Assembly: GCA_947629005.1 (NCBI GenBank)
Contig: CANRCD010000014.1
Coordinates: 1 to 44,720 of the forward strand
Length of the DNA stretch: 44,720 bases
Source of the DNA: an uncultured Clostridia bacterium
Lineage (GTDB): Bacteria > Bacillota > Clostridia > UMGS1883
Direction: 5' to 3'
The position numbers and the translations under genes were made by a program. The notes under the pieces were generated by a model that saw only the letters and a program-made list of their open reading frames with translations, did no database searches and was not told the origin of the DNA. This document shows positions 13,506-39,768 of this stretch, in pieces (the first letter of the stretch is position 1; every line of letters begins with the position of its first letter).

Positions 13506-15011
<1,506 letters not shown>

Positions 15012-15042
15012 AAGCCATGAGTTCAGAAAGGAATGAACCGCT

Positions 15043-15471
15043 TTGAAGAAAGTATATGTGAATGAGGAATGGTGCCTTGGCTGCCACCTTTGCGAATATT
15101 ACTGCGCCTTTGCCAACAGCGGCAAAAGGGATATGGCCTCGGCGCTCAAGGGCGTTGAGATAAACCCCCGTATCCGCGTGGAGGAGGGCGGCAGCGTGTG
15201 CTTCGCGGTAAACTGCCGCCACTGTCCCGACCCTATCTGCGTCAAAAGCTGCATAACGGGCGCGCTCAGCGTTAAGGACGGCCTTGTCGAAATAGATACC
15301 GACAAGTGCGTCGGCTGCTGCACCTGCGTTCTGGTCTGCCCCTTCGGCGCCATTATGCCGGGCGACGGCCACGCCGTACAGAAGTGCGAGCTTTGCACGA
15401 AGAACGGCTCCGAATCGCCGAGCTGCGTGGCGCACTGTCCCAACAACGCCATCGTCTTTGAAGAAAGGTAG
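15043..15471 (+). CDS. 4Fe-4S ferredoxin-type electron-transfer protein
   Basis: A 142-residue HycB/DmsB-like iron-sulfur protein with four cysteine clusters: CLGCHLCEYYC, CRHCPDPICVKSC, CVGCCTCVLVCPFG, and CELC followed later by CVAHCP. It probably carries electrons between the flavoprotein encoded downstream and the glutamate synthase subunit. Translation appears to start at a TTG (15043) preceded by AAAGGA; no ATG in frame fits better. It ends 9 bp before the next gene, so expression is tightly coupled. Confidence 0.9.
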   Translation: MKKVYVNEEWCLGCHLCEYYCAFANSGKRDMASALKGVEINPRIRVEEGGSVCFAVNCRHCPDPICVKSCITGALSVKDGLVEIDTDKCVGCCTCVLVCPFGAIMPGDGHAVQKCELCTKNGSESPSCVAHCPNNAIVFEER

Positions 15472-15480
15472 GGTGCAGGT

Positions 15481-16713
15481 ATGAACTACGTCATTATCGG
15501 AAACTCCGCCGCGGCCATAGGCTGCGTGGAGGGCATACGCAAAATCGACGCCGATGGCGCGATAACCCTTATTTCGTCGGAGCCGCACCACACCTACTCC
15601 CGCCCTCTCATATCATATCTGCTGCTGGGCGAGACCGACGAGCAGCGCATGAAGTACCGCCCCGACTCCTTCTACGCCGATAATCATGTGGACGCCCGTC
15701 TCGGCGTTTCCGTGACACGTATCGACGCCGAAGGCAGGGCCGTGGAGCTTGAGGGCGGAGAAAAGCTCCCCTTCGACAAACTCCTCATCGCCACCGGCTC
15801 CACGCCCTTTATCCCGCCCATGGCGGGGCTCGACAGCGTGGAGAAAAAATTTACCTTTATGGATAAGGACAGCGCTCTCGCCCTAAACCGCGCGCTGACG
15901 CCGGAAAGCCGCGTACTCATCGTGGGCGCGGGCCTTATCGGCCTAAAGTGCGCCGAGGGCATAGCTCACATGGTTAAGAGCATTACCGTCGTTGACCTCG
16001 CTGACCGCGTGCTCCCCAGTATACTCGACGGCGAGGCCGCCGCCATAATGCAAAAACATCTCGAAAAGCACGGCCTGCGCTTTATTCTTTCCGACAGCGT
16101 GAGCGAGTTTTCGGGCGGCAGCGCACGTCTAAGCAGCGGCAGGACAGTGGACTTTGACGTGCTTGTCATCGCGGTGGGCGTCCGTCCGGCGACCGCACTT
16201 GCCGCCGAGGCCGGCATAGGCGTGAACCGCGGTATCGTCACCGACGAACGCTGCGAGACCTCGACCAAGGACATATACGCCGCGGGCGACTGCACCGAAA
16301 GCCTCGACGTCAGCAGCGGGCAGGCCAAAATCATGGCCCTGCTCCCCAATGCCTATATGCAGGGCGAGTGCGCCGGACAAAACATGGCCGGCGGAGACGC
16401 GCTTTACGATAAGGCCATTCCAATGAACGCCATCGGCTTTTTCGGGCTGCACATCGTTTCGGCAGGCTGCTACGACGGCGAGGAATACGTTGAGTCCGAG
16501 AACGGAGGCTACAAAAAGCTTGTCGTGAAGGACGGTCTGCTGAAAGGGTTTATCATCATGGGCGACGTGCGCCGTGCGGGGATTTACACCTCGCTCATCA
16601 GGGAAAGAACGCCGCTTAACACAATTGACTTTGAGCTTATTAAGAAAAGCCCGCAGCTAATGGCCTTTGCCGCCGGTTCCGAGCGGCGCGGCAAGCTCAG
16701 CGGAAGGGCCTAA
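15481..16713 (+). CDS. NAD(P)/FAD-dependent oxidoreductase of the glutamate synthase operon
   Basis: A 410-residue pyridine nucleotide-disulfide oxidoreductase-fold protein. The FAD-binding N-terminus is YVIIGNSAAAIGCVEGIR. The NAD(P)-binding motif is VLIVGAGLIGLKCAEGIA near residue 143. The FAD-closing motif is IYAAGDCTES near residue 263. It resembles the rubredoxin-reductase/nitrite-reductase (NirB-type) flavoproteins and lacks a redox-active CxxxxC pair. In this operon it most likely takes the place of GltD, feeding electrons from NAD(P)H through the small Fe-S protein to the synthase. It sits between the Fe-S gene (9 bp upstream) and the GXGXG gene (12 bp downstream). Confidence 0.88.
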   Translation: MNYVIIGNSAAAIGCVEGIRKIDADGAITLISSEPHHTYSRPLISYLLLGETDEQRMKYRPDSFYADNHVDARLGVSVTRIDAEGRAVELEGGEKLPFDKLLIATGSTPFIPPMAGLDSVEKKFTFMDKDSALALNRALTPESRVLIVGAGLIGLKCAEGIAHMVKSITVVDLADRVLPSILDGEAAAIMQKHLEKHGLRFILSDSVSEFSGGSARLSSGRTVDFDVLVIAVGVRPATALAAEAGIGVNRGIVTDERCETSTKDIYAAGDCTESLDVSSGQAKIMALLPNAYMQGECAGQNMAGGDALYDKAIPMNAIGFFGLHIVSAGCYDGEEYVESENGGYKKLVVKDGLLKGFIIMGDVRRAGIYTSLIRERTPLNTIDFELIKKSPQLMAFAAGSERRGKLSGRA

Positions 16714-30454: not shown

Positions 30455-31222
30455 ATGGAAAAGACTATTAAGACGGTAATTGCCGGCGACGGACGGGATA
30501 CTACAGAGGAAATCAGCGGATTTCTCTCGGAAAAGAGCGATATTTTTATTGCGGGCTCGGCTAATGACGGAGAAGAAGCCCTTGAAAAGGTGAAAAAGCT
30601 GCGGCCCGACCTTTTGATAATGGACGTGATGATGCCCAAGCTCGACGGTATAGAGCTTTTGAGGCGGCTTCAGGAGCTGAGCCGCAAGCCCGTGGTCATA
30701 ATCGTGACCTCCACATCCAACCGCACTCTGATAAATCACTGCATGGAGCTGGGCGCGGACTACTTTATGATAAGGCCCTGCAACTTCGCGACACTTTACG
30801 AGCGCATAAAGATGCTCTGCGTTAAGTCGTCTCTGCGGCGCGGCGGCGAGGTGGGCGACCGTCCCGGCGACCGTGCGATTGAGATTACCGTCACCAACAC
30901 TATTCACTCCGTGGGCGTACCCGCCAATATAAAGGGTTACCAATACCTGCGCGACGCAATCATCATGTGCATAAAGGACAGCGAGCTCATTAATGCCGTC
31001 ACCAAGCAGTTATATCCCAAGGTGGCCGAAAAGCACAACACCTCGCCCAGCCGCGTGGAGCGCGCCATACGCCACGCCATTGAAGTAGCCTGCACCCGCG
31101 GCAACGAGGAGGCTCTCTATAACCTTTTCGGCTATACCGTCAGCAACAATAAGGGCAAGCCCACCAATTCCGAATTCATTGCCATGATAGCCGATAAGCT
31201 CCGGCTGGAAATGCTGGCCTGA
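30455..31222 (+). CDS. spo0A: Sporulation transcription factor Spo0A with a divergent receiver domain
   Basis: A 255-residue response regulator that controls entry into sporulation. The C-terminal DNA-binding domain is fully recognisable: [43 protein letters not shown] and [18 protein letters not shown]. The receiver keeps the phosphorylation site D57 in [13 protein letters not shown]. It is changed at two otherwise near-invariant places. The acidic pair near residue 11 reads GD instead of DD, and the lysine of the KPF motif is R107 (MIRPCN). Phosphorylation or its readout may therefore differ. CGGAGG precedes the ATG. Monocistronic, and convergent with the hydrogenase operon. Confidence 0.95.
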
Positions 31223-31404: not shown

Positions 31405-33153
31405 TTACTGAACCTCGTATTTGGGACGGGCAATATAATGAGTGTGGAGAAGCTCGTGGGCCTTATGGCCGCCGGCCTCGCCAAGATACTCGCTGTAAAG
31501 CTGCTGAATATAGGGGTTGTCGTGGCTCTTGCGCACCTTGAGGCTCTTGTCTTCGGCATAAATGGCCTTGGCGCGCTCGGCGGAAACATTCACATCCATC
31601 TTCACTCTGGAGGAAACTATGGGCTGGCCGCCGCCTGTTACGCAGCCGCCGGGGCAGGCCATGATTTCGATGAAATCAACCTGAGTTTCGCCGGCTTTAA
31701 TGCTGTCAAGCAGCTTTCTGGCATTTCCAAGACCATGGGCCACAGCCGCGCGGATAACCTTATCCCCCGCGGGAACGGAGGCTATCTTCACGCCGTCAAG
31801 GCCGCGAACCTCCTCGTAGTCCACCTTGTCAACGGGCTTGCCGCTGAGTATTTCGGCAACGGTGCGGAGAGCCGCCTCCATAACGCCGCCGGTAACGCCG
31901 AAGATAACGCCCGCGCCGGTGGCCTCGTCGCCGAAGGGTGAGTCAAACACTTCGTCGGGGAGCTTATCGAACTGAATGCCACTCTGCTTTATCATTCTGG
32001 CGAGCTCGCGGGTGGTGATAACGGCGTCAACATCGGGAACGCCGTTGGCGGCAAGCTCGTCGCGGGCCGCCTCGAACTTCTTGGCGGTGCAGGGCATTAC
32101 GGAAACAACGTAGATATCCTTGGGGTCAATGCCGGCCTTCTGGGCGTAATAGCTCTTGATGATAGCGCCGAACATTTCATGGGGCGACTTGCAGGTGCTG
32201 AGATTATCCAAAAATTCAGGATAGTTGTGCTCGCAGAACTTAACCCAGCCGGGGCTGCACGAGGTTATCATCGGCAGCGTGCCGCCGTTTTGTATCCTAT
32301 GGAGCAGCTCGGTACCCTCCTCCATGATGGTGAGGTCGGCGCCGAAGTCGGTATCGAACACCTTATCGAAGCCCAAGCGGCGCAGCGCGGCGGCCATCTT
32401 GCCGGTCACGCGCTCGCCCATAGGCAGGCCAAATTCCTCGCCGAGAGCGGCGCGGACGGCGGGAGCCGTCTGAACCACAACGTGCTTGTCGGAGGCGAGA
32501 GCGTCCCAAACCTCCTTAGTGGAGTCCTTCTCGCGAAGGGCGCCGACAGGGCAGACAGCTATGCACTGACCGCAGTTCACGCAATCGACATCGCCAAGGC
32601 TGGCCTCGAACGCGCAACCGACCTTGGTCTTGAAGCCGCGCTCCATAGTGTCGATAACGCCGACGGTCTGAATTTTTTTGCAGACGTTTACGCAACGGCG
32701 GCAAAGCACGCACTTATTGTTGTCGCGCACGATAGAAGGAGAAATGTCGTCTATATCATACTCGCTGCGAACGCCCTCGTAAGGGATGTCCTCAACACCG
32801 AGCTCGTCGGCAAGAGCCTGAAGCTCGCAGTTGCGGTTGCGGGGGCAGGTGAGGCACTTGCGGTCGTGATTGCTGAGCATTAACTCAAGCACGGCGCGGC
32901 GTGTCTCACGCACGGCGGGGGTATTGGTCTGAACCTCAATACCCTCGGCGACGGGATAAACGCAGGCCGCCTGAAGTGCGCGGCTGCCCTTTATTTCAAC
33001 AAGGCACATTCTGCACGAGCCGGTTTGGCTGACATCCTTAAGATAGCAAAGGGTGGGGATTTCGATTCCGGCCGAGCGAGCGGCCTCCAGAACGGTGGTT
33101 CCTGCGGGGACGGAAACGTCCTGCCCGTTTATTTTTAAATTAACCATATCCAT
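31405..33153 (-). CDS. hndD: [FeFe] hydrogenase catalytic subunit (HndD/HydA)
   Basis: A 582-residue catalytic subunit of a multimeric NAD(P)-linked, probably electron-bifurcating hydrogenase. The N-terminal 2Fe-2S domain (CYLKDVSQTGSCRMCLVEI plus a later Cys) is followed by the His-ligated cluster region (HDRKCLTCPRNRNCELQ). Next come two 4Fe-4S clusters (CVLCRRCVNVCKK, CVNCGQCIAVCPVGAL). The H-cluster motifs are TSCSPGW, MPCTAKKFEA and EIMACPGGCVTGGGQP, and a small-subunit-like tail ends the chain. Start codons TTG (33162) and ATG (33153) are possible; AAAGGAG is best spaced for 33153. It is last in the hndA-HATPase-hndB-hndC-hndD order and makes H2 from electrons of NAD(P)H and ferredoxin. 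Confidence 0.96.
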   Translation of the reverse strand: MDMVNLKINGQDVSVPAGTTVLEAARSAGIEIPTLCYLKDVSQTGSCRMCLVEIKGSRALQAACVYPVAEGIEVQTNTPAVRETRRAVLELMLSNHDRKCLTCPRNRNCELQALADELGVEDIPYEGVRSEYDIDDISPSIVRDNNKCVLCRRCVNVCKKIQTVGVIDTMERGFKTKVGCAFEASLGDVDCVNCGQCIAVCPVGALREKDSTKEVWDALASDKHVVVQTAPAVRAALGEEFGLPMGERVTGKMAAALRRLGFDKVFDTDFGADLTIMEEGTELLHRIQNGGTLPMITSCSPGWVKFCEHNYPEFLDNLSTCKSPHEMFGAIIKSYYAQKAGIDPKDIYVVSVMPCTAKKFEAARDELAANGVPDVDAVITTRELARMIKQSGIQFDKLPDEVFDSPFGDEATGAGVIFGVTGGVMEAALRTVAEILSGKPVDKVDYEEVRGLDGVKIASVPAGDKVIRAAVAHGLGNARKLLDSIKAGETQVDFIEIMACPGGCVTGGGQPIVSSRVKMDVNVSAERAKAIYAEDKSLKVRKSHDNPYIQQLYSEYLGEAGGHKAHELLHTHYIARPKYEVQ

Positions 33154-33174
33154 TTCAGGCAACTCCTTTCTTAC

Positions 33175-34968
33175 TTAACCTTTGACAACTGCGCCGAACT
33201 TGCAGGTCTCCATGCAGACGCCGCACTTGACGCACTTGGTGGCGTCGATGACGAAAGGCTTCTTGATCTCGCCGGAAATGGCGCCCACGGGGCACTTGCG
33301 CGAGCAGGCGGAGCAGCCCTTGCACTTTTCGGCGTCGATGGAGTACCTTGTGAGGGCCTTACATACGCCGGCGGGGCACTTCTTATCCACAACGTGAGCA
33401 ATATACTCGTCGCGGAAATAGCGCAGCGTGGAAAGAACGGGGTTCGGAGCCGTCTGGCCGAGGCCGCAGAGCGAGGCGTTCTTGATATGGTAGCAAAGAG
33501 CCTCAAGACGGTCGATGTCCTCAAGAGTGCCGTTGCCCTTGGTTATCTTGTCAAGTATCTCCAGCAGACGCTTGGTGCCTATACGGCAGGGCGTACACTT
33601 GCCGCAGGACTCGTCAACGGTGAACTCGAGGAAGAACTTGGCTATATCAACCATGCAGTTGTCCTCGTCCATAACGATAAGGCCGCCGGAGCCCATCATC
33701 GAGCCTATGGAGATGAGCGAATCGTAGTCGATGGGCGTATCAATGAGGGAGGCGGGTATGCAGCCGCCGCTGGGGCCGCCTGTCTGGGCAGCCTTGAACT
33801 TTTTGCCGTTGGGTACGCCGCCGCCGATCTCTTCAACGATTTCGCGCAGGGTAGTGCCCATGGGAATTTCAACAAGACCGGTGTTGTTTATCTTGCCGCC
33901 GAGAGCGAACACCTTGGTTCCCTTGCTCTTTTCGGTGCCGATAGAAGCGAACCAGTCCGCGCCCTTATTGATGATAACGGGAATATTGGCGTAGGTTTCA
34001 ACGTTGTTCAGAATAGTGGGCTTTTCCCACAGTCCCTTTACGGCTGGGAACGGCGGACGGGGACGGGGCTCGCCGCGGTGGCCCTCGATGGACGTCATGA
34101 GGGCGGTCTCCTCGCCGCAGACGAAGGCGCCGGCGCCGAGGCGTATCTCGATGTCGAAATCAAAGCCCGTGTCAAATATATTCTTGCCGAGCAGGCCGTA
34201 TTCCTTGGCCTGTTCAATGGCTATCTGGAGTCTCTTTACCGCGATGGGATACTCGGCGCGGATATAGATGTAACCCTGATTTGCACCGATGGCGTAGCCG
34301 GCGATCGCCATAGCCTCGAGCACGCTGTGGGGGTCGCCCTCAAGCACGCTTCTGTCCATGAATGCGCCCGGGTCGCCCTCATCGGCGTTGCAGCAGACGT
34401 ACTTCTGCTCGTTCACGCTCTTGGACGCAAAGTCCCACTTGGTGCCGGTGGGGAAACCGCCGCCGCCGCGGCCGCGCAGGCCGGACTTCTTGACGGTATC
34501 AATAACCTCGGCGGGGGTCATTTCGGTAAGGACCTTGCCGAGAGCCTGATAGCCGTCAACGGCAATGTACTCCTCAATATTTTCAGGGTTGATAACACCG
34601 CAGTTGCGCAGAGCGACTCTCTGCTGCTTCTTGTAGAAATTAACGTCGTTGAGGGACTTTATGCCGTCGTCCTCAACGGTCTCGTCATACACAAGCCTCT
34701 TGACGATACGGCCCTTCAAAAGGTGCTCCTTGACGATCTCCTCCACGTCCTCCTTCTTGACGCGGCTGTAGAAGGAGCCCTCGGGGTATACGACGACGAT
34801 GGGGCCGAGGGCGCAAAGGCCGAAGCAACCCGTTTTTATAACCTTTACCTCTTTGGAAAGGCCGTTTTCCTCAAGCTTGGCCTCGAACTCGTCCATAAGC
34901 GTCTGGCTGCCAGAGGAAGTGCAGCCCGTGCCTCCGCAGATAAGCACATGGGATCTAACAAGCTCCAT
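33175..34968 (-). CDS. hndC: NADH/NADP-reducing hydrogenase flavin subunit (HndC/NuoF-like)
   Basis: A 597-residue NuoF-like subunit. The first 100 residues are a thioredoxin-like 2Fe-2S domain (CGGTGCTSSGS with a later TGCFGLC). The NuoF core has SGLRGRGGGGFPTGTKW and CNADEGDPGAFMDRSVLEGDPH for FMN and NAD(H), then GAGAFVCGEETALM. The SLBB segment leads to ESCGKCTPCRIGTKR and SLCGLGQTAPNPVLST, which bind a 4Fe-4S cluster. Two ferredoxin clusters close the protein (CKGCSACSRKCPVGAI, CVKCGVCMETCKFGAV). In the HydABC class this subunit carries the NAD(P)H site and is thought to host flavin-based bifurcation. It lies between hndB (16 bp upstream) and hndD (21 bp downstream). Confidence 0.96.
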   Translation of the reverse strand: MELVRSHVLICGGTGCTSSGSQTLMDEFEAKLEENGLSKEVKVIKTGCFGLCALGPIVVVYPEGSFYSRVKKEDVEEIVKEHLLKGRIVKRLVYDETVEDDGIKSLNDVNFYKKQQRVALRNCGVINPENIEEYIAVDGYQALGKVLTEMTPAEVIDTVKKSGLRGRGGGGFPTGTKWDFASKSVNEQKYVCCNADEGDPGAFMDRSVLEGDPHSVLEAMAIAGYAIGANQGYIYIRAEYPIAVKRLQIAIEQAKEYGLLGKNIFDTGFDFDIEIRLGAGAFVCGEETALMTSIEGHRGEPRPRPPFPAVKGLWEKPTILNNVETYANIPVIINKGADWFASIGTEKSKGTKVFALGGKINNTGLVEIPMGTTLREIVEEIGGGVPNGKKFKAAQTGGPSGGCIPASLIDTPIDYDSLISIGSMMGSGGLIVMDEDNCMVDIAKFFLEFTVDESCGKCTPCRIGTKRLLEILDKITKGNGTLEDIDRLEALCYHIKNASLCGLGQTAPNPVLSTLRYFRDEYIAHVVDKKCPAGVCKALTRYSIDAEKCKGCSACSRKCPVGAISGEIKKPFVIDATKCVKCGVCMETCKFGAVVKG

Positions 34969-34984: not shown

Positions 34985-35356
34985 TTACATTCCGGCGGAG
35001 CCGATGGTGTATTCCGATACCACCTGTCCGTTCACGATGTGTTCCGATACTATGCGCGCAACCTTTTCGGGGGTCATCTTTATGTAAGTGACCTTGTCCT
35101 GACCGGGCGCGTAAATCTCAACGATGGGCTCAAGGCGGCAAAGGCCTATGCAGCCCGTCTGCTCAACAACTACGTTCTGAAGATTTCTCTTGTTGATTTC
35201 CTCAAGGAAAGCCGTCATAACGGGGCGGGCGCCGGCGGCTATGCCGCAGGTGGCCATGCCGACAACGACTCTCGTGCCGTCCTCTCTTTCCTTCCTAAGG
35301 TTTACATTTTCGATTGCTTTCTGCTTCAGCGCCTGAAGCTCGGCTAAGCTTTTCAT
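34985..35356 (-). CDS. hndB: 2Fe-2S thioredoxin-like hydrogenase subunit (HndB-like)
   Basis: A 123-residue protein with a short helical start (LAELQALKQKAIENV) and a thioredoxin-like 2Fe-2S ferredoxin fold. One cysteine pair site is GMATCGIAAGA and the other is VEQTGCIGLCRLEPIVEIY. It is an electron-transfer subunit of the Hnd hydrogenase in Desulfovibrio and Clostridia. Its start codon directly abuts the stop of the ATPase gene upstream, so the two are translationally coupled. It is followed after 16 bp by hndC, which itself starts with a related domain. Confidence 0.9.
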   Translation of the reverse strand: MKSLAELQALKQKAIENVNLRKEREDGTRVVVGMATCGIAAGARPVMTAFLEEINKRNLQNVVVEQTGCIGLCRLEPIVEIYAPGQDKVTYIKMTPEKVARIVSEHIVNGQVVSEYTIGSAGM

Positions 35357-35908
35357 TTATTCTGCACCTCCATAAATATTTGCAATACCTTCGTCAATAT
35401 AGTCCTTGATCCACGCCGCGACCGTCGGGTCGCTGAGCGGAACCTCGCCGAGGATATCCTTCATTTCCTTTGTGCTGAGTTCAAACACCCTTTTGTTAAA
35501 AGTGTGCCTGTAGCAAAAGTCAATTTCGGGATTCATGGATATCAGCGCCGTCATAGTGCCGGCAATGTCGCCGAGGGGTTGGCGGTCGATATGGCTGTAG
35601 GAAAAACGGGCCTCTATAAAGGTTCCCTTCCCCACCTCGCTTGTGAGCTCAACGTCGCCGCCGGTGGCTTGGGCCGCACTGCGAAGGAGCGATATGCCCA
35701 TGCCCACCTTGCGCGTGGTGCGCGTTGTAACGAAGGGGTCCATCACCCTCGCAACCATGTCGCTGTCCATGCCGCAGCCGTTATCCTTCACCGAAAATGA
35801 CAGGATATCCTCGTCCGTGTCCTCGCGGAGCTCGACCTCGATTAGCGTCGCCCCCGCGCGGACCGAATTCTGCACAATGTCCAGAATGTTCAGACTAATT
35901 TCCTGCAT
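35357..35908 (-). CDS. Stand-alone HATPase (histidine kinase-like ATP-binding protein) in the hydrogenase operon
   Basis: A 183-residue protein whose first 110 residues are a GHKL ATP-binding domain. The N-box is SLNILDIVQNSVRAGA, the G1 box DNGCGMD and the G2 box KVGMGISLLRSAAQATGG. There is no phospho-accepting histidine domain or sensor, so it is not a classical kinase. The remaining 70 residues are not recognisable. It sits inside hndA-hndB with 1 bp and 0 bp gaps, an arrangement I associate with clostridial hnd operons. A role in protein phosphorylation or partner switching that tunes the hydrogenase is an inference. Confidence 0.85.
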   Translation of the reverse strand: MQEISLNILDIVQNSVRAGATLIEVELREDTDEDILSFSVKDNGCGMDSDMVARVMDPFVTTRTTRKVGMGISLLRSAAQATGGDVELTSEVGKGTFIEARFSYSHIDRQPLGDIAGTMTALISMNPEIDFCYRHTFNKRVFELSTKEMKDILGEVPLSDPTVAAWIKDYIDEGIANIYGGAE

Positions 35909-35909
35909 A

Positions 35910-36398
35910 TCAGTATTTGGCGATTATACCGGGAACGTCGTCCACAACAAGGCGGCCGTAAACGTCGTCGTTGACGGTCATAACGGGGGCAAGGCCGCAG
36001 GCGCCTATGCAGCGGGTGGCCGTGAGCGAATACTTGCCGTCGCTCGTGCAGCCGTCAACGTCTATTCCCAAAATCTCCTTAACCTTATTAATGATGTCGC
36101 CGCTGCCCTTAACGTAGCAGGCGGTGCCGAGGCAAACGCTGATTTGATAGTCGCCCTTGGGATTGAGGGAAAACTGCGTATAAAATGTTACAACGCCGTA
36201 AACCTCCGCCAGCGTAACGCCCAGTCCCTTGGCAATAATGCTCTGAACCTCGATGGGCAGGTAGCCGTAGATGTCCTGAGCCTCGTGGAGCACGGATATA
36301 AGCGCGCCGGCCTGATCCTTGTGCTTGGCGATGACCTCCATGAGCTTCGCTTCCTGCTCAGCGGTGCCCTTGAAGGGCACGGTAGCCTGATTACTCAT
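35910..36398 (-). CDS. hndA: Hydrogenase 2Fe-2S subunit (HndA/NuoE-like)
   Basis: A 162-residue NuoE-like protein. A helical N-terminal part (GALISVLHEAQDIYGYLPIEVQ) precedes a thioredoxin-like 2Fe-2S domain. Its cysteines are in VCLGTACYVKG and TATRCIGACGLAPVM, the four-cysteine pattern of the family. It transfers electrons between the flavin subunit and the rest of the complex. It is the first gene after a strong internal promoter, with an AAGGAGG ribosome-binding site, so the catalytic half of the cluster can be expressed apart from the regulatory half. Confidence 0.95.
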   Translation of the reverse strand: MSNQATVPFKGTAEQEAKLMEVIAKHKDQAGALISVLHEAQDIYGYLPIEVQSIIAKGLGVTLAEVYGVVTFYTQFSLNPKGDYQISVCLGTACYVKGSGDIINKVKEILGIDVDGCTSDGKYSLTATRCIGACGLAPVMTVNDDVYGRLVVDDVPGIIAKY

Positions 36399-36478: not shown

Positions 36479-36507
36479 ATTATATCAGAATAATATCGGT
36501 TTGTCTA
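36479..36507 (-). promoter_or_regulatory. Promoter of the hnd catalytic operon
   Basis: On the minus strand TAGACA (36502-36507), 17 bp, TATAAT (36479-36484). An imperfect dyad with TGTCT and AGACA ends (36502-36519) overlaps the -35 and may be a regulator site. The leader is about 75 nt and GC-rich in its middle. Confidence 0.8.
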
Positions 36508-36536: not shown

Positions 36537-37250
36537 TTACATAATATTTCTTTTTTTGCCTAAGAGTTCTAGCACGGCGGCGACGCTCTTTTCCTCAAGG
36601 TTCAGCCGCCACACGGCGTCGGAAATATCCGTCAGATAGTGGGCGTCGCTGTCGTGAAGATAGCGGTACCTGTCGTCCGAGGCCATTTCGGGGCCGGCCC
36701 GCTTGGAAAGCTCCAGCGTGGCGAAGCCCATTTCCTCCGGCACAGAGCCGAGGTTCGACACAATACTGTTGCTGGGGCGGTCGATATGGGCCGGTATGCA
36801 AACGCCGCCGCGCTCCTCGACGAGGGCCTTTATCCGCTCTACGGGAAGGTCGGTGGCGTTTATGAGCAGCTTTTCTATGGTGCCGGTCTGCTCGTCACGG
36901 CTGTTCATTATCCTCTGCTCGCCAAAAATTTCAGGACGGTTTTTTATGGGCGGGAGGCTATTCTCCAGAATTTCGCCCATGGCGAGCGCGGCCTCCACCG
37001 TGGGAAAAAGACACAGCAGGTGAACCTCCTCGGCGCTTTCGGCCTCGATTGCGGGCACCACGAGCAAATCCCACTCCTTTGCCGCCTCGACGACGGCGGG
37101 CAGATTTTTTGCGGTGTTATGGTCGGAAAGGGCAATTATATCAAGCCCGTTCAGCATTGCCATGGCCGCTATGTTATGGGGCGTCATATCGTCGTCGCCG
37201 CAGGGCGACAGGCACGAGTGTATATGCAAATCGTAAGCGTACCTGCCCAT
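36537..37250 (-). CDS. PHP-domain phosphoesterase-like protein
   Basis: A 237-residue PHP-fold protein. DLHIHSCLSPCGDDDMTPHNIA gives the first histidines, IIALSDHNTAKN the third, VVPAIEAESAEEVHLLCLF a glutamate and histidine, VCIPAHIDRP another histidine, and LHDSDAHYLTDI the final Asp-His pair. All metal ligands of a trinuclear PHP site appear present. Family members act on phosphoesters of nucleotides or histidinol phosphate. Its location after HydS-like and DRTGG genes suggests a signalling role. It starts at the ATG at 37250, overlapping the preceding stop codon (TGATG), rather than at the GTG one codon earlier. Confidence 0.87.
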   Translation of the reverse strand: MGRYAYDLHIHSCLSPCGDDDMTPHNIAAMAMLNGLDIIALSDHNTAKNLPAVVEAAKEWDLLVVPAIEAESAEEVHLLCLFPTVEAALAMGEILENSLPPIKNRPEIFGEQRIMNSRDEQTGTIEKLLINATDLPVERIKALVEERGGVCIPAHIDRPSNSIVSNLGSVPEEMGFATLELSKRAGPEMASDDRYRYLHDSDAHYLTDISDAVWRLNLEEKSVAAVLELLGKKRNIM

Positions 37251-37579
37251 CACACCAGATCCTTCAACTCGCAGACAAGCTCAAAGGCCGTTTTTTCGCT
37301 GCTGTAGACGGGTATGCCCTCCATATCGGCCCGTTTGGCGGCGTTGGGGTCGGGGCTGAGCCCTTCGGCGAGAATTATCATCGCGGCGTCGGTAAGGCTG
37401 GCAACGGCCACTATGTTAATGTTCGTCTGGATAGTCACCCATGCGTTGCCGCTCTGGGCCTTGCCCATGACAAGGCTCAAAAGGTCGCCCACGTAGCCTC
37501 CGCTGACCTCGCGGCCGACGCCGTCCTCGCCGCATTTCAGCGTCAGTTCAAGCCTTTCGGCTATATCCTTAACTGTCAT
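37250..37579 (-). CDS. DRTGG-domain-like small protein (hydrogenase regulatory cluster, second copy)
   Basis: A 109-residue protein similar to the DRTGG fold: VKDIAERLELTLKCGEDGVGREVSGGYVGDLLSLVMGKA, then WVTIQTNINIVAVASLTDAAMIILAEG and a short C-terminal helix. In larger proteins this fold sits between CBS or phosphotransacetylase domains, and its ligand is not established. It is the shorter relative of the protein at 39350-39703, so the cluster has two such proteins. It overlaps the PHP gene by 1 bp and follows the HydS-like gene after 19 bp. A GGGGAGA ribosome-binding site is present. Confidence 0.8.
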   Translation of the reverse strand: MTVKDIAERLELTLKCGEDGVGREVSGGYVGDLLSLVMGKAQSGNAWVTIQTNINIVAVASLTDAAMIILAEGLSPDPNAAKRADMEGIPVYSSEKTAFELVCELKDLV

Positions 37580-37598
37580 TTTTCTCTCCCCTTCGATT

Positions 37599-38900
37599 TT
37601 ACTCCGTCATGGACGGGGGCAGTTTGCTCTCAAGCTCGGCCATCTCCTTGGCCAGCAGGCTGACGCGCTCGCGCAGCTTAAATATACAGTCGGTCTCGTT
37701 CGCCTTGCCGCGCACGATGTCCTCAGCCAGTTCGCGGCAGGTAGGCGCCCCGCAGGAGCCGCAGTCAAGTCGGGGCAGACCCTCAATTATCTCGTTCATC
37801 CTTATGGCCTTCTGCATAGCTATGCCGAAATCGGCGTCCAGCGGCGAGAAGGGCTGATACTCGATTTTTCTGTTCCAGTAAAGGTCCATATCGTCCTTAA
37901 GCTCGCCCTTTTTGTCCTCAAGGCCCTGTGATATACGCCTTATGCGGGAATTTGCCACGAAGTTGTTCTCCACCGTCAGGCTTCCGCCCACGCAGCCGCC
38001 CGTACAGGCCAACGCCTCGATAAAGTCAATGCCCTTTATCTTTTCGTCCTCGAGCTGGTCAAGCACCTCGATGACGTTGGCGATACCGTCCACGGCTATG
38101 TACTTCTCAATGCCGAGGGCCTCGGCCTCGCCGCCGTGGTTTGCCCAGCGGACGCCGCTGCGGCCCGACTTGCTCAAATGCTCGACCTTGGTTATTTTAT
38201 CTATACTGTGCGCCAGACGCATATATACGTCCTTAATAGACAGCGCCCAGTCGACATTTGACTTTTCCAGCGCGATGGGCCACTTTATAGCCGTTACCTT
38301 GGCCGGACACGGCGTGATGAAGAACACGCCGATGTCCTCGTCGCTGAGGCCGGTCTTTTCCCTCGCCTCGCGGCGGGCCATTTCGGCGGCGGCCTCCATG
38401 GGCGAGGTCAGCGGAGCGACGTGGCTCATCAAATCGTGGTACTTCACCGCCACGAGCCTTACCACGGCCGGACAGGCCGAAGAGATAAGCGGAGCCTCGT
38501 ATTCGCCGCTCTTAATAAGCTCCTTCATTTTTTCGGTGATGACCTCGGCCCCGCGGGCCACCTCAAACACGTCGTCAAAGCCCAGCATTTTAAGGCCGGT
38601 CAAAACTATATCGAAGTCCGTCGCCTTTGAAAACTGGCCGCAGAAGGCCGGCGCCGGAAGCGCAATCTTATATTTGTAGCGGTCCATAACCTCAAATCCG
38701 TCGGTTATGGCCTTTTTGGCGTGGTATTGGCAGCGGCGGATACACTCGCCGCAGTCGATACACCGTTCGCTGATAATCTTCGCCTTTCCCTGCTGCACGC
38801 GGATTGCCTGAGTGGGGCAATAGCGTATGCAGGTGGTGCAGCCCTTGCACATCGGTTTATCAAGGGTAACGCTGTGAAATCTTCTTTCGATCTCTCCCAT
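37599..38900 (-). CDS. HydS-like putative sensory [FeFe] hydrogenase
   Basis: A 433-residue protein with two N-terminal 4Fe-4S clusters (CKGCTTCIRYCP, CIDCGECIRRC). A hydrogenase large-subunit domain follows, whose H-cluster motifs are altered: SSACPAVV in place of TSC[CS]PGW, TPCPAKVTA in place of MPCxxKK, and ALACTGGCVGGSL in place of xMACPGGCxGGGG. The cysteines needed to hold a cluster remain. The C-terminus has an extra Fe-S motif (LDCGSCGAPTCRELAEDI and a final Cys). This layout matches putative H2-sensing or regulatory hydrogenases that accompany Hnd/Hyd enzymes. No PAS domain is attached, so any output must go through neighbours. GGAGG is best spaced for the ATG at 38900; a GTG at 38906 is too close. 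Confidence 0.85.
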   Translation of the reverse strand: MGEIERRFHSVTLDKPMCKGCTTCIRYCPTQAIRVQQGKAKIISERCIDCGECIRRCQYHAKKAITDGFEVMDRYKYKIALPAPAFCGQFSKATDFDIVLTGLKMLGFDDVFEVARGAEVITEKMKELIKSGEYEAPLISSACPAVVRLVAVKYHDLMSHVAPLTSPMEAAAEMARREAREKTGLSDEDIGVFFITPCPAKVTAIKWPIALEKSNVDWALSIKDVYMRLAHSIDKITKVEHLSKSGRSGVRWANHGGEAEALGIEKYIAVDGIANVIEVLDQLEDEKIKGIDFIEALACTGGCVGGSLTVENNFVANSRIRRISQGLEDKKGELKDDMDLYWNRKIEYQPFSPLDADFGIAMQKAIRMNEIIEGLPRLDCGSCGAPTCRELAEDIVRGKANETDCIFKLRERVSLLAKEMAELESKLPPSMTE

Positions 38901-38924
38901 TTGCACAGCCTCCTATACTGTTTG

Positions 38925-39353
38925 CTACTTTATATATACCGTCATGTCAACCGTGGTACCGACGCCGAGTTCGGTGTCGATATTCATTTCGTCGGTGTAT
39001 TTTTTCATGTTGGGAAGGCCCATACCCGCTCCGAAGCCCAGCTCGCGCACCTGCTGGCTGGCGGTGGAGAAGCCCTCCGTCATGGCCTTTTCAACGTCCG
39101 GTATGCCGGGGCCCACGTCCTTATGTATCATGCGTATCTTATCCGGCGATATCTCAACGTCTATAACTCCGCCCCTTGCGTGGATAACCATATTTATCTC
39201 GCACTCGTACATGGCTATGGCAACCTTGCGGATGACGTCGGCGCTTATGCCAAGCTGCTTGAGCACCTTTTTCACGGCCCCGCTGGCCTCGCCGGCCACG
39301 GTGAAGTCGGTGCCGTCCACGGTGTAGTGCAGCTTCATCAACGGCTCGCTCAT
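38925..39353 (-). CDS. RsbT/SpoIIAB-like serine-kinase-type ATPase
   Basis: A 142-residue GHKL protein of the anti-sigma/partner-switch family. The N-box is VAIAMYECEINMVIHARGG, the G1 region KDVGPGIPDVEKAM, and the C-terminal GFGAGMGLPNMKKYTDEM is very close to RsbT and SpoIIAB-type kinases. Such kinases phosphorylate STAS-domain partners. No STAS or sigma-factor gene is seen here, so the partner may be the DRTGG or HydS-like protein. It overlaps the upstream DRTGG gene by 4 bp (ATGA) and is 24 bp before the HydS-like start. Confidence 0.87.
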   Translation of the reverse strand: MSEPLMKLHYTVDGTDFTVAGEASGAVKKVLKQLGISADVIRKVAIAMYECEINMVIHARGGVIDVEISPDKIRMIHKDVGPGIPDVEKAMTEGFSTASQQVRELGFGAGMGLPNMKKYTDEMNIDTELGVGTTVDMTVYIK

Positions 39354-39703
39354 GACCGCACACTTCCTCCGGCAAGCCCCGCTGCATAGAGTTTGCCGCA
39401 GGCGGGATACATGGGCAGGTCGGTTTTCATTATGACCATCTCGCGGCTTTCTGCAAGACTGAGCACCTCGGCCGTGGGCTCCTTGCCGCGAATAAAAATC
39501 ACGGCGTGTATGTCCATCATCTCGGCCGTGCGGATAACCTGACCGTTGACAAGCCCCGTGAGCAGCAAGGCCTGATCCTTAACAAAGGCCAGCACGTCGC
39601 TCATAAGGTCGCTGCCGCAGGCGGAAAACACCTCCCTGTCAAGCTCGTCTCCGCCGACAAGCACCTCGGCGTTCAGTATTTCTTTGATTTCACTCAGCTT
39701 CAT
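39350..39703 (-). CDS. DRTGG-domain-like protein heading the hydrogenase regulatory cluster
   Basis: A 117-residue DRTGG-type protein: KLSEIKEILNAEVLVGGDELDREV, CGSDLMSDVLAFVKDQALLLTGLVNGQVIRTAEMMDIHAVIF, then EVLSLAESREMVIMKTDLPMY. It is built like the second copy at 37250-37579 but is longer at both ends. A longer reading upstream runs through the promoter; the ATG at 39703 has GGAGG at correct spacing. It is the first gene of the regulatory half of the hydrogenase cluster. Its ligand and role are unknown. Confidence 0.82.
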   Translation of the reverse strand: MKLSEIKEILNAEVLVGGDELDREVFSACGSDLMSDVLAFVKDQALLLTGLVNGQVIRTAEMMDIHAVIFIRGKEPTAEVLSLAESREMVIMKTDLPMYPACGKLYAAGLAGGSVRS

Positions 39704-39739: not shown

Positions 39740-39768
39740 ATTATACACAAACCCCTGCCCCATTGCAA
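39740..39768 (-). promoter_or_regulatory. Promoter of the hydrogenase regulatory operon
   Basis: On the minus strand TTGCAA (39763-39768), 17 bp, TATAAT (39740-39745), about 30 bp upstream of the first start codon. Confidence 0.8.

Follow-up and report, generated by a model that had tools for sequence, protein, structure and literature searches.

A conserved clostridial gene cassette around a group D [FeFe] hydrogenase, with a SpoIIAB-like ATPase and two DRTGG proteins as candidate signalling partners

Group D [FeFe] hydrogenases are already regarded as putatively sensory, and their genes are known to lie upstream of those for electron-bifurcating hydrogenases, beside a gene for a histidine kinase-like ATPase (PMC8163306, PMC3608648). 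The characterised group D enzyme, HydS of Thermoanaerobacter mathranii (Tam HydS), turns over H2 at a low but real rate (PMC8163306). Here we analyse a gene cassette around a hydrogenase of this type in a stretch of 44,720 nucleotides from an uncultured Clostridia bacterium (contig CANRCD010000014.1, assembly GCA_947629005.1); the whole of this stretch is referred to below as the window. In order of transcription, the window encodes a first DRTGG protein (DRTGG-1, D1), a SpoIIAB/RsbW-like ATPase (W), the group D hydrogenase (HydS), a second DRTGG protein (DRTGG-2, D2) and a PHP protein, and then HndA, a second GHKL ATPase (K), HndB, HndC, and HndD of the catalytic hnd operon.

A 2026 study of Tam HydS reported an H2-induced structural change, with a C-terminal cluster that is not reduced by H2, and described the identification of group D interaction partners and of the signal path as critical and still to be done (PMC13104023). 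The Halsa_1862-1871 operon of Halanaerobium hydrogeniformans has been listed once as a gene order, uninterpreted, running from hydrogenase, NADH dehydrogenase, ferredoxin-like, histidine kinase, and NuoE genes to PHP, iron-sulfur binding hydrogenase, anti-sigma regulatory factor kinase, and unidentified open reading frame (ORF) (PMC4237134). Deletion of a group C sensor subunit, hfsB, raised ethanol yield and adhE expression (PMC5707799). The sensory role of group D and its neighbourhood of hnd genes and a kinase-like ATPase were thus already known (PMC8163306, PMC3608648, PMC4237134). Beyond this neighbourhood, the new evidence consists of natural gene fusions and of loci in which W carries a CBS domain pair and HydS is absent.

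Conservation, co-occurrence, and fusions of the cassette genes

The order D1-W-HydS-D2-PHP recurs nearly everywhere, either followed by HndA-K-HndB-HndC-HndD or head to head with these genes. The genome sample comprised 249 genomes across the phylum, from which about 100 regions were fetched and their ORFs labelled with profiles built from those regions. A second set came from a W-profile scan of named genomes, which returned at least 577 encoding stretches, the best 80 of which were examined. Adjacency was counted in about 180 fetched loci whose contig extends far enough to show the neighbour, a collection that includes related species and a named set picked by W similarity. D1 lies directly 5' of W in 160 of 173 loci, HydS directly 3' of W in 165 of 174 (95%), D2 3' of HydS in 162 of 181 (a denominator that takes in some non-group-D matches), and PHP 3' of D2 in 155 of 167. 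Median gaps are −4 nucleotides for D1-W, HydS-D2, and D2-PHP, and 13 nucleotides for W-HydS. The retention of this order in about 180 loci rules out chance. The best 80 of the at least 577 W-encoding stretches have the same order, many of them divergent from hnd or without hnd in the fetched stretch; they come mostly from Oscillospiraceae, Ruminococcus, and Lachnospiraceae metagenome-assembled genomes, and also include Clostridium asparagiforme, Anaerobium acetethylicum, and Eubacterium ramulus.

An earlier reading, made from the window sequence only, had described the five genes as a module tied to hnd and named scattering of these genes, unlinked to hydrogenases, as what would count against it. 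The opposite was found, in that order and the link to HydS are conserved over about 180 loci. The linkage to hnd holds for many loci, but many other cassettes have no hnd genes in the fetched stretch, and the cassette is therefore not strictly an hnd accessory.

W and HydS also travel together between genomes. Among the 249 genomes, W was found in 98 and HydS in 92, both in 91, HydS only in one, W only in 7, and neither in 150 (Fisher p about 2e-58, phylogeny uncorrected). In the only HydS-only genome, HydS lies less than 100 bases from a contig end, and it is on that side that W would be expected. Group D homologues separate by score in these genomes, full-length members reaching at least 295 bits and the next matches 234 and 163, and the W subfamily was cut at 167 bits or more, general SpoIIAB-like matches reaching only about 63 bits. 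Each of the module-type proteins PHP, D2, K, and W was present in 15 of 15 HydS genomes, and taken together they were present in only 5 of 65 HydS-lacking genomes. Two of these five hold decaying copies: in G037, HydS, W, and PHP have decayed while HndA, K, HndB, HndC, and HndD are intact, and the remnants in G005 are D2, a broken PHP, and K only.

Three kinds of natural fusion occur as single ORFs. D1 is fused to W in seven loci, HydS continues at its C terminus into D2 in two (L043, L049), and W is joined to HydS in one (L113). Pfam recognises both halves of the L113, L043, and L049 fusions and of the D1~W fusion of L044, and the DRTGG half of the D1~W fusion in L095 is detected by a custom profile only. 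Four proteins are thus linked pairwise in one chain. D1~W fusions occur in two lineages, and a short W tree requires two changes to account for them. In the AlphaFold2 (AF2) model of a D1~W fusion the domains are confident and the linker (116-127) is disordered, with a predicted template modelling score (pTM) of 0.77. The DRTGG domain of HydS~D2 follows the C-terminal cluster, which is the position of the PAS domain in group C enzymes (PMC8163306).

A second line of evidence comes from variant inputs. W carries a CBS pair (CBS~W) in five loci from three families, four of them without HydS, and this state needs three changes on the W tree. L149, L159, and L160 have the order D1-W-D2-PHP-K, with an N-terminal CBS pair on W and no HydS. 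In L150, D1 and a CBS-bearing W lie ahead of an HndB-like gene and an Rnf operon, again with no HydS, and in L154, Rex and NfnAB genes come after D1-W, likewise with no HydS. The loci with a CBS-bearing W and no HydS lend support to the view that HydS is an input of W that can be exchanged. On the simplest reading, D1-W would be a transmitter open to more than one kind of input and working for several ferredoxin/NAD(P)H enzymes.

The component proteins

HydS is, by its sequence, a group D (M2e)-type [FeFe] hydrogenase. A Pfam scan finds an Fe_hyd_lg_C domain (129 bits), Fer4 domains, and a C-terminal FeS domain (PF04060), and no PAS domain, such as stands at the C terminus of group C (M2f) enzymes. 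In an alignment of 96 homologues, 16 of 16 cluster cysteines are invariant apart from gaps; they comprise four of the H-cluster (C145, C200, C301, C305), eight N-terminal ferredoxin-type cysteines, and a C-terminal Cx2Cx4Cx16C motif (C382, C385, C390, C407). The equivalent of CpI C299 is Ala144, with Ala or Ser in most of the 96 rows, and that of CpI M353 is Thr198, with Thr or Ser in 95. The window protein thus has every feature by which Land et al. delimit group D, namely replacement of C299, Ser or Thr for M353, the C-terminal Cx2Cx4Cx16C, and no PAS domain (PMC8163306). E260 and E297 (Glu in 90 and 95 of the 96 rows) align with E252 and E289, the proton-path glutamates of Tam HydS (PMC10407848). 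The sequence-only reading was right that the cluster cysteines are retained, that PAS is absent, and that SSACPAVV, TPCPAKV, and GGCVGGSL stand in place of the catalytic motifs. Its phrase “sensor rather than an enzyme” is supported in its first half, in the sense of a sensor-type hydrogenase. Because Tam HydS turns over H2, however slowly, the altered motifs indicate an enzyme that is slow and sensor-like, not one that is inactive. The HydS of the window probably senses hydrogen.

W matches Pfam HATPase_c_2 (41.9 bits) and falls below both curated NCBIfam models, with 55 bits for spIIAB (cut-off 135) and 30 for RsbW (cut-off 145). Its nearest PDB match by sequence is SpoIIAB, and the homologous domain in the L044 D1~W fusion model matches SpoIIAB 1til with a Z of 18.6 and a root-mean-square deviation of 1.9 over 132 residues. 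The catalytic N-box residues Glu50 and Asn54 and the G-box residues are identical in 89 of 89 homologues; the ATP-lid region is longer in the sequence alignment than that of SpoIIAB. W is by these comparisons nearest to SpoIIAB/RsbW and not specifically to RsbT, so that the earlier label “RsbT-like” needs correction. By analogy with this family, W is a probable serine kinase or transmitter.

D1 passes Pfam PF07085 (31.0 bits, cut-off 25.2), and its residues D32, S35, T49, and A60 are identical in 70 of 70 homologues. The D1-homologous domain of the L044 fusion model folds like the AF1212 DRTGG domain 2ioj (Z 17.8) and resembles the HPr kinase N-domain more weakly. D2 itself scores 21.9 bits against the same cut-off of 25.2, the D2-homologous domain that is fused to HydS in L043 reaching 30.1; S35 is found in 89 of 90 aligned rows (one gap), and T49 and N55 in all 90. 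S35 and T49 of both proteins are candidate phospho-sites.

The PHP protein retains nine putative metal ligands (H10, H12, D44, H45, E70, H78, H156, D203, H205), and its Pfam score of 24.3 lies slightly under the cut-off of 26.4. The AF2 model has a predicted local distance difference test score (pLDDT) of 96.5, and its fold neighbours are EndoQ (Z 20.9), TM0559 (Z 17.0), and RNase AM (Z 16.7), which favours a nucleotide or nucleic-acid substrate. A role as phosphotyrosine phosphatase was considered and rejected, CpsB/YwqE (Z 8) ranking far below the EndoQ-type folds.

K consists of a GHKL ATPase domain and a C-terminal extension, its nearest solved relatives being the ATPase domains of histidine kinases. 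It stands directly 3' of PHP in at least seven loci where the hnd genes are separate, and between HndA and HndB in most other loci, often overlapping HndB; it is missing from some loci, at least four among them. K is the sixth recurrent member of the system, which the five-gene description, otherwise real and conserved, had left out. A C-terminal motif around H106-D108-R109-P111-G113 is conserved in K.

Layout in the window and genomic surroundings

The five minus-strand ORFs and their two overlapping pairs are present as first described (Table 1), the overlaps of 4 nucleotides lying between D1 and W and between D2 and PHP. A GGAGG-type ribosome site precedes the D1 start ATG at 39703. Two sigma-70-like promoters were called as consensus matches only, which by themselves are no evidence of function. 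The one predicted between PHP and the NuoE-like gene (36507-36479) suggests that the cassette and the hnd operon may be separately initiated in the window. A Spo0A-like response regulator gene, assigned from its translation alone, lies at 30455-31222, convergent with the end of the hnd operon.

Table 1. Features of the cassette and of the adjoining hnd operon in the window
Feature	Position	Strand	Remarks
DRTGG-1 (D1)	39350-39703	minus	117 aa DRTGG-fold protein; first cassette gene
W, SpoIIAB/RsbW-like GHKL ATPase	38925-39353	minus	142 aa; probably a serine kinase or a transmitter
HydS, group D (M2e)-type [FeFe] hydrogenase	37599-38906	minus	435 aa; putative H2/redox sensor
DRTGG-2 (D2)	37250-37579	minus	109 aa
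PHP-fold metallophosphoesterase	36537-37253	minus	238 aa
HndA/NuoE-like [2Fe-2S] subunit of catalytic hydrogenase	35910-36398	minus	PF01257 170.7 bits
K, second stand-alone GHKL ATPase	35357-35908	minus	183 aa; HATPase_c 63.7 bits
HndB-like thioredoxin-type [2Fe-2S] protein	34985-35356	minus	PF01257 23.6 bits, cut-off 24.8 narrowly missed
HndC, NuoF-like flavoprotein	33175-34968	minus	Complex1_51K, NADH_4Fe-4S
HndD, catalytic group A [FeFe] hydrogenase	31405-33162	minus	NCBIfam FeFe_hydrog_A6 928 bits, cut-off 765
Sigma-70-like promoter upstream of DRTGG-1	39740-39768	minus	TTGCAA-17-TATAAT; consensus scan
Sigma-70-like promoter between PHP and HndA	36479-36507	minus	TAGACA-17-TATAAT, TG before second hexamer; consensus scan

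The recurrent neighbours of the cassette include valS-folC, a SPOR-like protein, and RnfC, all but RnfC named from sequence reading. The valS, folC, and SPOR-like genes lie upstream of D1 on the same strand in 25-33 fetched loci, which suggests an old chromosomal position. A Rex gene is co-oriented with the cassette in 22 of 96 group D loci, and this redox-repressor gene sometimes overlaps the start of D1~W. Rex-binding sites upstream of D1 were considered and set aside: 24 of 69 sites have at least 11 of 14 matches, compared with 6 of 81 in a control of sequence upstream of HndC, which is largely coding, so that the signal is too weak and composition-biased. The best Rex-like site upstream of D1 in the window has 10 of 14 matches.

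In four loci of one family (f24), a HydS-D2 pair without W or PHP heads an HndB-HndA-HndC-HndD hydrogenase operon; it is possible that this pair is a duplicated sensor sharing one W, the fuller cassette being elsewhere in the genome. L043 and L049 encode a group C-like hydrogenase whose C terminus is formed by a histidine-kinase ATPase domain (13669-15972 and 13943-16279, respectively) about 2.3-2.5 kb upstream of the group D cassette, placing two sensor types in one region. In another family (f80), W-HydS adjoins genes for a response regulator, for a histidine-kinase-like protein, and for another protein that resembles a hydrogenase, and D2-PHP, with D1 and K matches, is found on a different contig.

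Proposed signalling path and comparison with known systems

We favour the reading that these genes form a modular redox-signalling cassette in which HydS feeds the W ATPase and its DRTGG partners. Comparative genomics gives this good support, and as a whole statement we hold it to be somewhat more probable than its denial. HydS would sense H2 or reducing pressure at the H-cluster and pass a conformational signal to the adjacent W, which would partner with D1 and D2. By analogy to SpoIIAB/RsbW, W would be a Ser/Thr kinase whose partners or substrates are DRTGG proteins where that family has STAS proteins. The output would tune the electron-bifurcating hydrogenase, or in variants Rnf or NfnAB, via expression or by direct action on the complexes, and PHP and K would be downstream parts. 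That signalling passes through the stand-alone ATPase and the DRTGG proteins had been proposed from the window alone; the fusions and the CBS~W loci without HydS add support to this path, which may include phosphorylation of the DRTGG proteins by W. A more specific version would be a new class of partner-switch signalling: a SpoIIAB-like kinase would have DRTGG proteins as its phospho-switches in place of STAS proteins, would take plug-in inputs (a group D hydrogenase for H2, a CBS pair for adenine nucleotides), and would govern the electron-bifurcating and ferredoxin-coupled complexes Hnd, Rnf, and Nfn of anaerobes. We hold this version to be clearly less likely than the general one, and improbable rather than probable.

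Several observations weigh against the cassette being such a signalling unit. W~HydS is known from a single draft genome and HydS~D2 from two genomes of one family. HydS and CBS~W are both present in L119, so the CBS pair is not a simple replacement for HydS and can be additional to it. D1 was not found next to W in six loci of one family group, or in L085 and L113, and in family f80 W-HydS is apart from D2-PHP. The 22 most recurrent neighbour clusters, within about 6-9 kb, contain no sigma, STAS, or PP2C genes, so that the output of a classical partner switch is missing. The conservation of S35 and T49 in the DRTGG proteins may instead be structural, and the modelled fold of PHP speaks for nucleotides or nucleic acids as its substrates more than for phosphoproteins.

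One rival reading is a nucleotide-signal pathway, in which DRTGG proteins and the variant CBS pair would bind adenine nucleotides, PHP would make or remove a nucleotide, and W and K would respond to ATP/ADP instead of phosphorylating proteins. This is consistent with the existence of CBS~W variants and with the structural neighbours: the CBS-pyrophosphatase 3l31/3l2b is among the nearest solved DRTGG domains, and the AMP-binding 2yb1 joins EndoQ and RNase AM near PHP. Such a pathway alone leaves the W~HydS and D1~W fusions and the kinase-type Glu of W unexplained, and we consider it unlikely.

The position of K between HndA and HndB, and of cassette genes beside or inside the hnd operon generally, would suit an assembly or maintenance module, whose ATPases, DRTGG, and PHP proteins would mature, repair, or protect HndABCD, with HydS as a cluster-carrying scaffold. 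SpoIIAB-like ATPases are, as a family, known signal kinases, and a CBS pair borne by W serves for input, not for assembly. In addition, many five-gene cassettes lack hnd in their fetched flanks, and D1 and W stand beside Rnf in L150 and beside Rex and NfnAB in L154 with HydS absent, which makes an assembly role improbable.

We give as little credence to classical partner switching, with W as an anti-sigma factor for an unlinked sigma and D1 and D2 as diverged anti-anti-sigma factors. The fold and residues of W are as in SpoIIAB, and the split family f80 has W-HydS beside a response regulator and a sensor kinase-like gene. Yet D1 and D2 match DRTGG and not STAS, W stays far below the SpoIIAB equivalog cut-off, and neither sigma nor STAS genes recur nearby. 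Finally, that HydS is a low-rate electron-transfer enzyme, as the H2 turnover of Tam HydS might suggest (PMC8163306), with unrelated operon passengers around it, is very improbable in view of the fusions, the co-occurrence, the order kept across the phylum, and the joint decay of HydS, W, and PHP in G037 beside intact HndA, K, HndB, HndC, and HndD.

The signalling cassette that we favour bears directly on the group D partner question: fusions and invariant order would name W as the first partner and the two DRTGG proteins as the next, and the question becomes testable with four small soluble proteins and natural single-chain constructs. If the reading is correct, many fermenting gut and rumen bacteria would have here a route to tune hydrogen output, with consequences for interspecies H2 transfer, methane formation, and biofuel strains. 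Bifurcating enzymes may, further, be governed by kinase-type switches that have neither STAS nor sigma partners. As the sequence-only reading had supposed, no description of an output pathway was found in the searchable open-access literature. There, hydrogenase and DRTGG are co-mentioned only in a broad mutant study, with one mention each; subscription papers, such as the clostridial survey of Calusinska et al. 2010, lie outside that search.

Compared with described systems, the window HydS is closest to Tam HydS (PMC8163306, PMC10407848, PMC13104023), with which it shares the two-cluster N-terminal domain, the H-cluster cysteines, the loss of CpI C299, Ser/Thr at M353, the C-terminal Cx2Cx4Cx16C, the lack of PAS, and a gene upstream of a bifurcating hydrogenase adjoining a histidine kinase-like ATPase. 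Published work on Tam HydS differs in having no DRTGG or PHP partner, fusion, or CBS variant, and Halsa_1862-1871 (PMC4237134) is a bare gene list without a signalling-unit reading or a comparative test. The group C HydS/HfsB modules of Ruminococcus albus and of Thermoanaerobacterium saccharolyticum (hfsABCD; PMC5707799, PMC11837493) similarly place a sensor-type hydrogenase beside a catalytic one and adjoining a Ser/Thr signalling enzyme, and their deletion alters fermentation and gene expression. They carry PAS and pair with a Ser phosphatase or a histidine kinase, whereas the window cassette has no PAS and instead a stand-alone SpoIIAB-like ATPase with DRTGG proteins. With the SpoIIAB/RsbW kinases, W shares the fold, the Glu and Asn residues, and the G-boxes; in contrast to them, its cassette has DRTGG proteins in the place of STAS, no linked sigma factor, and a redox protein as its putative input.

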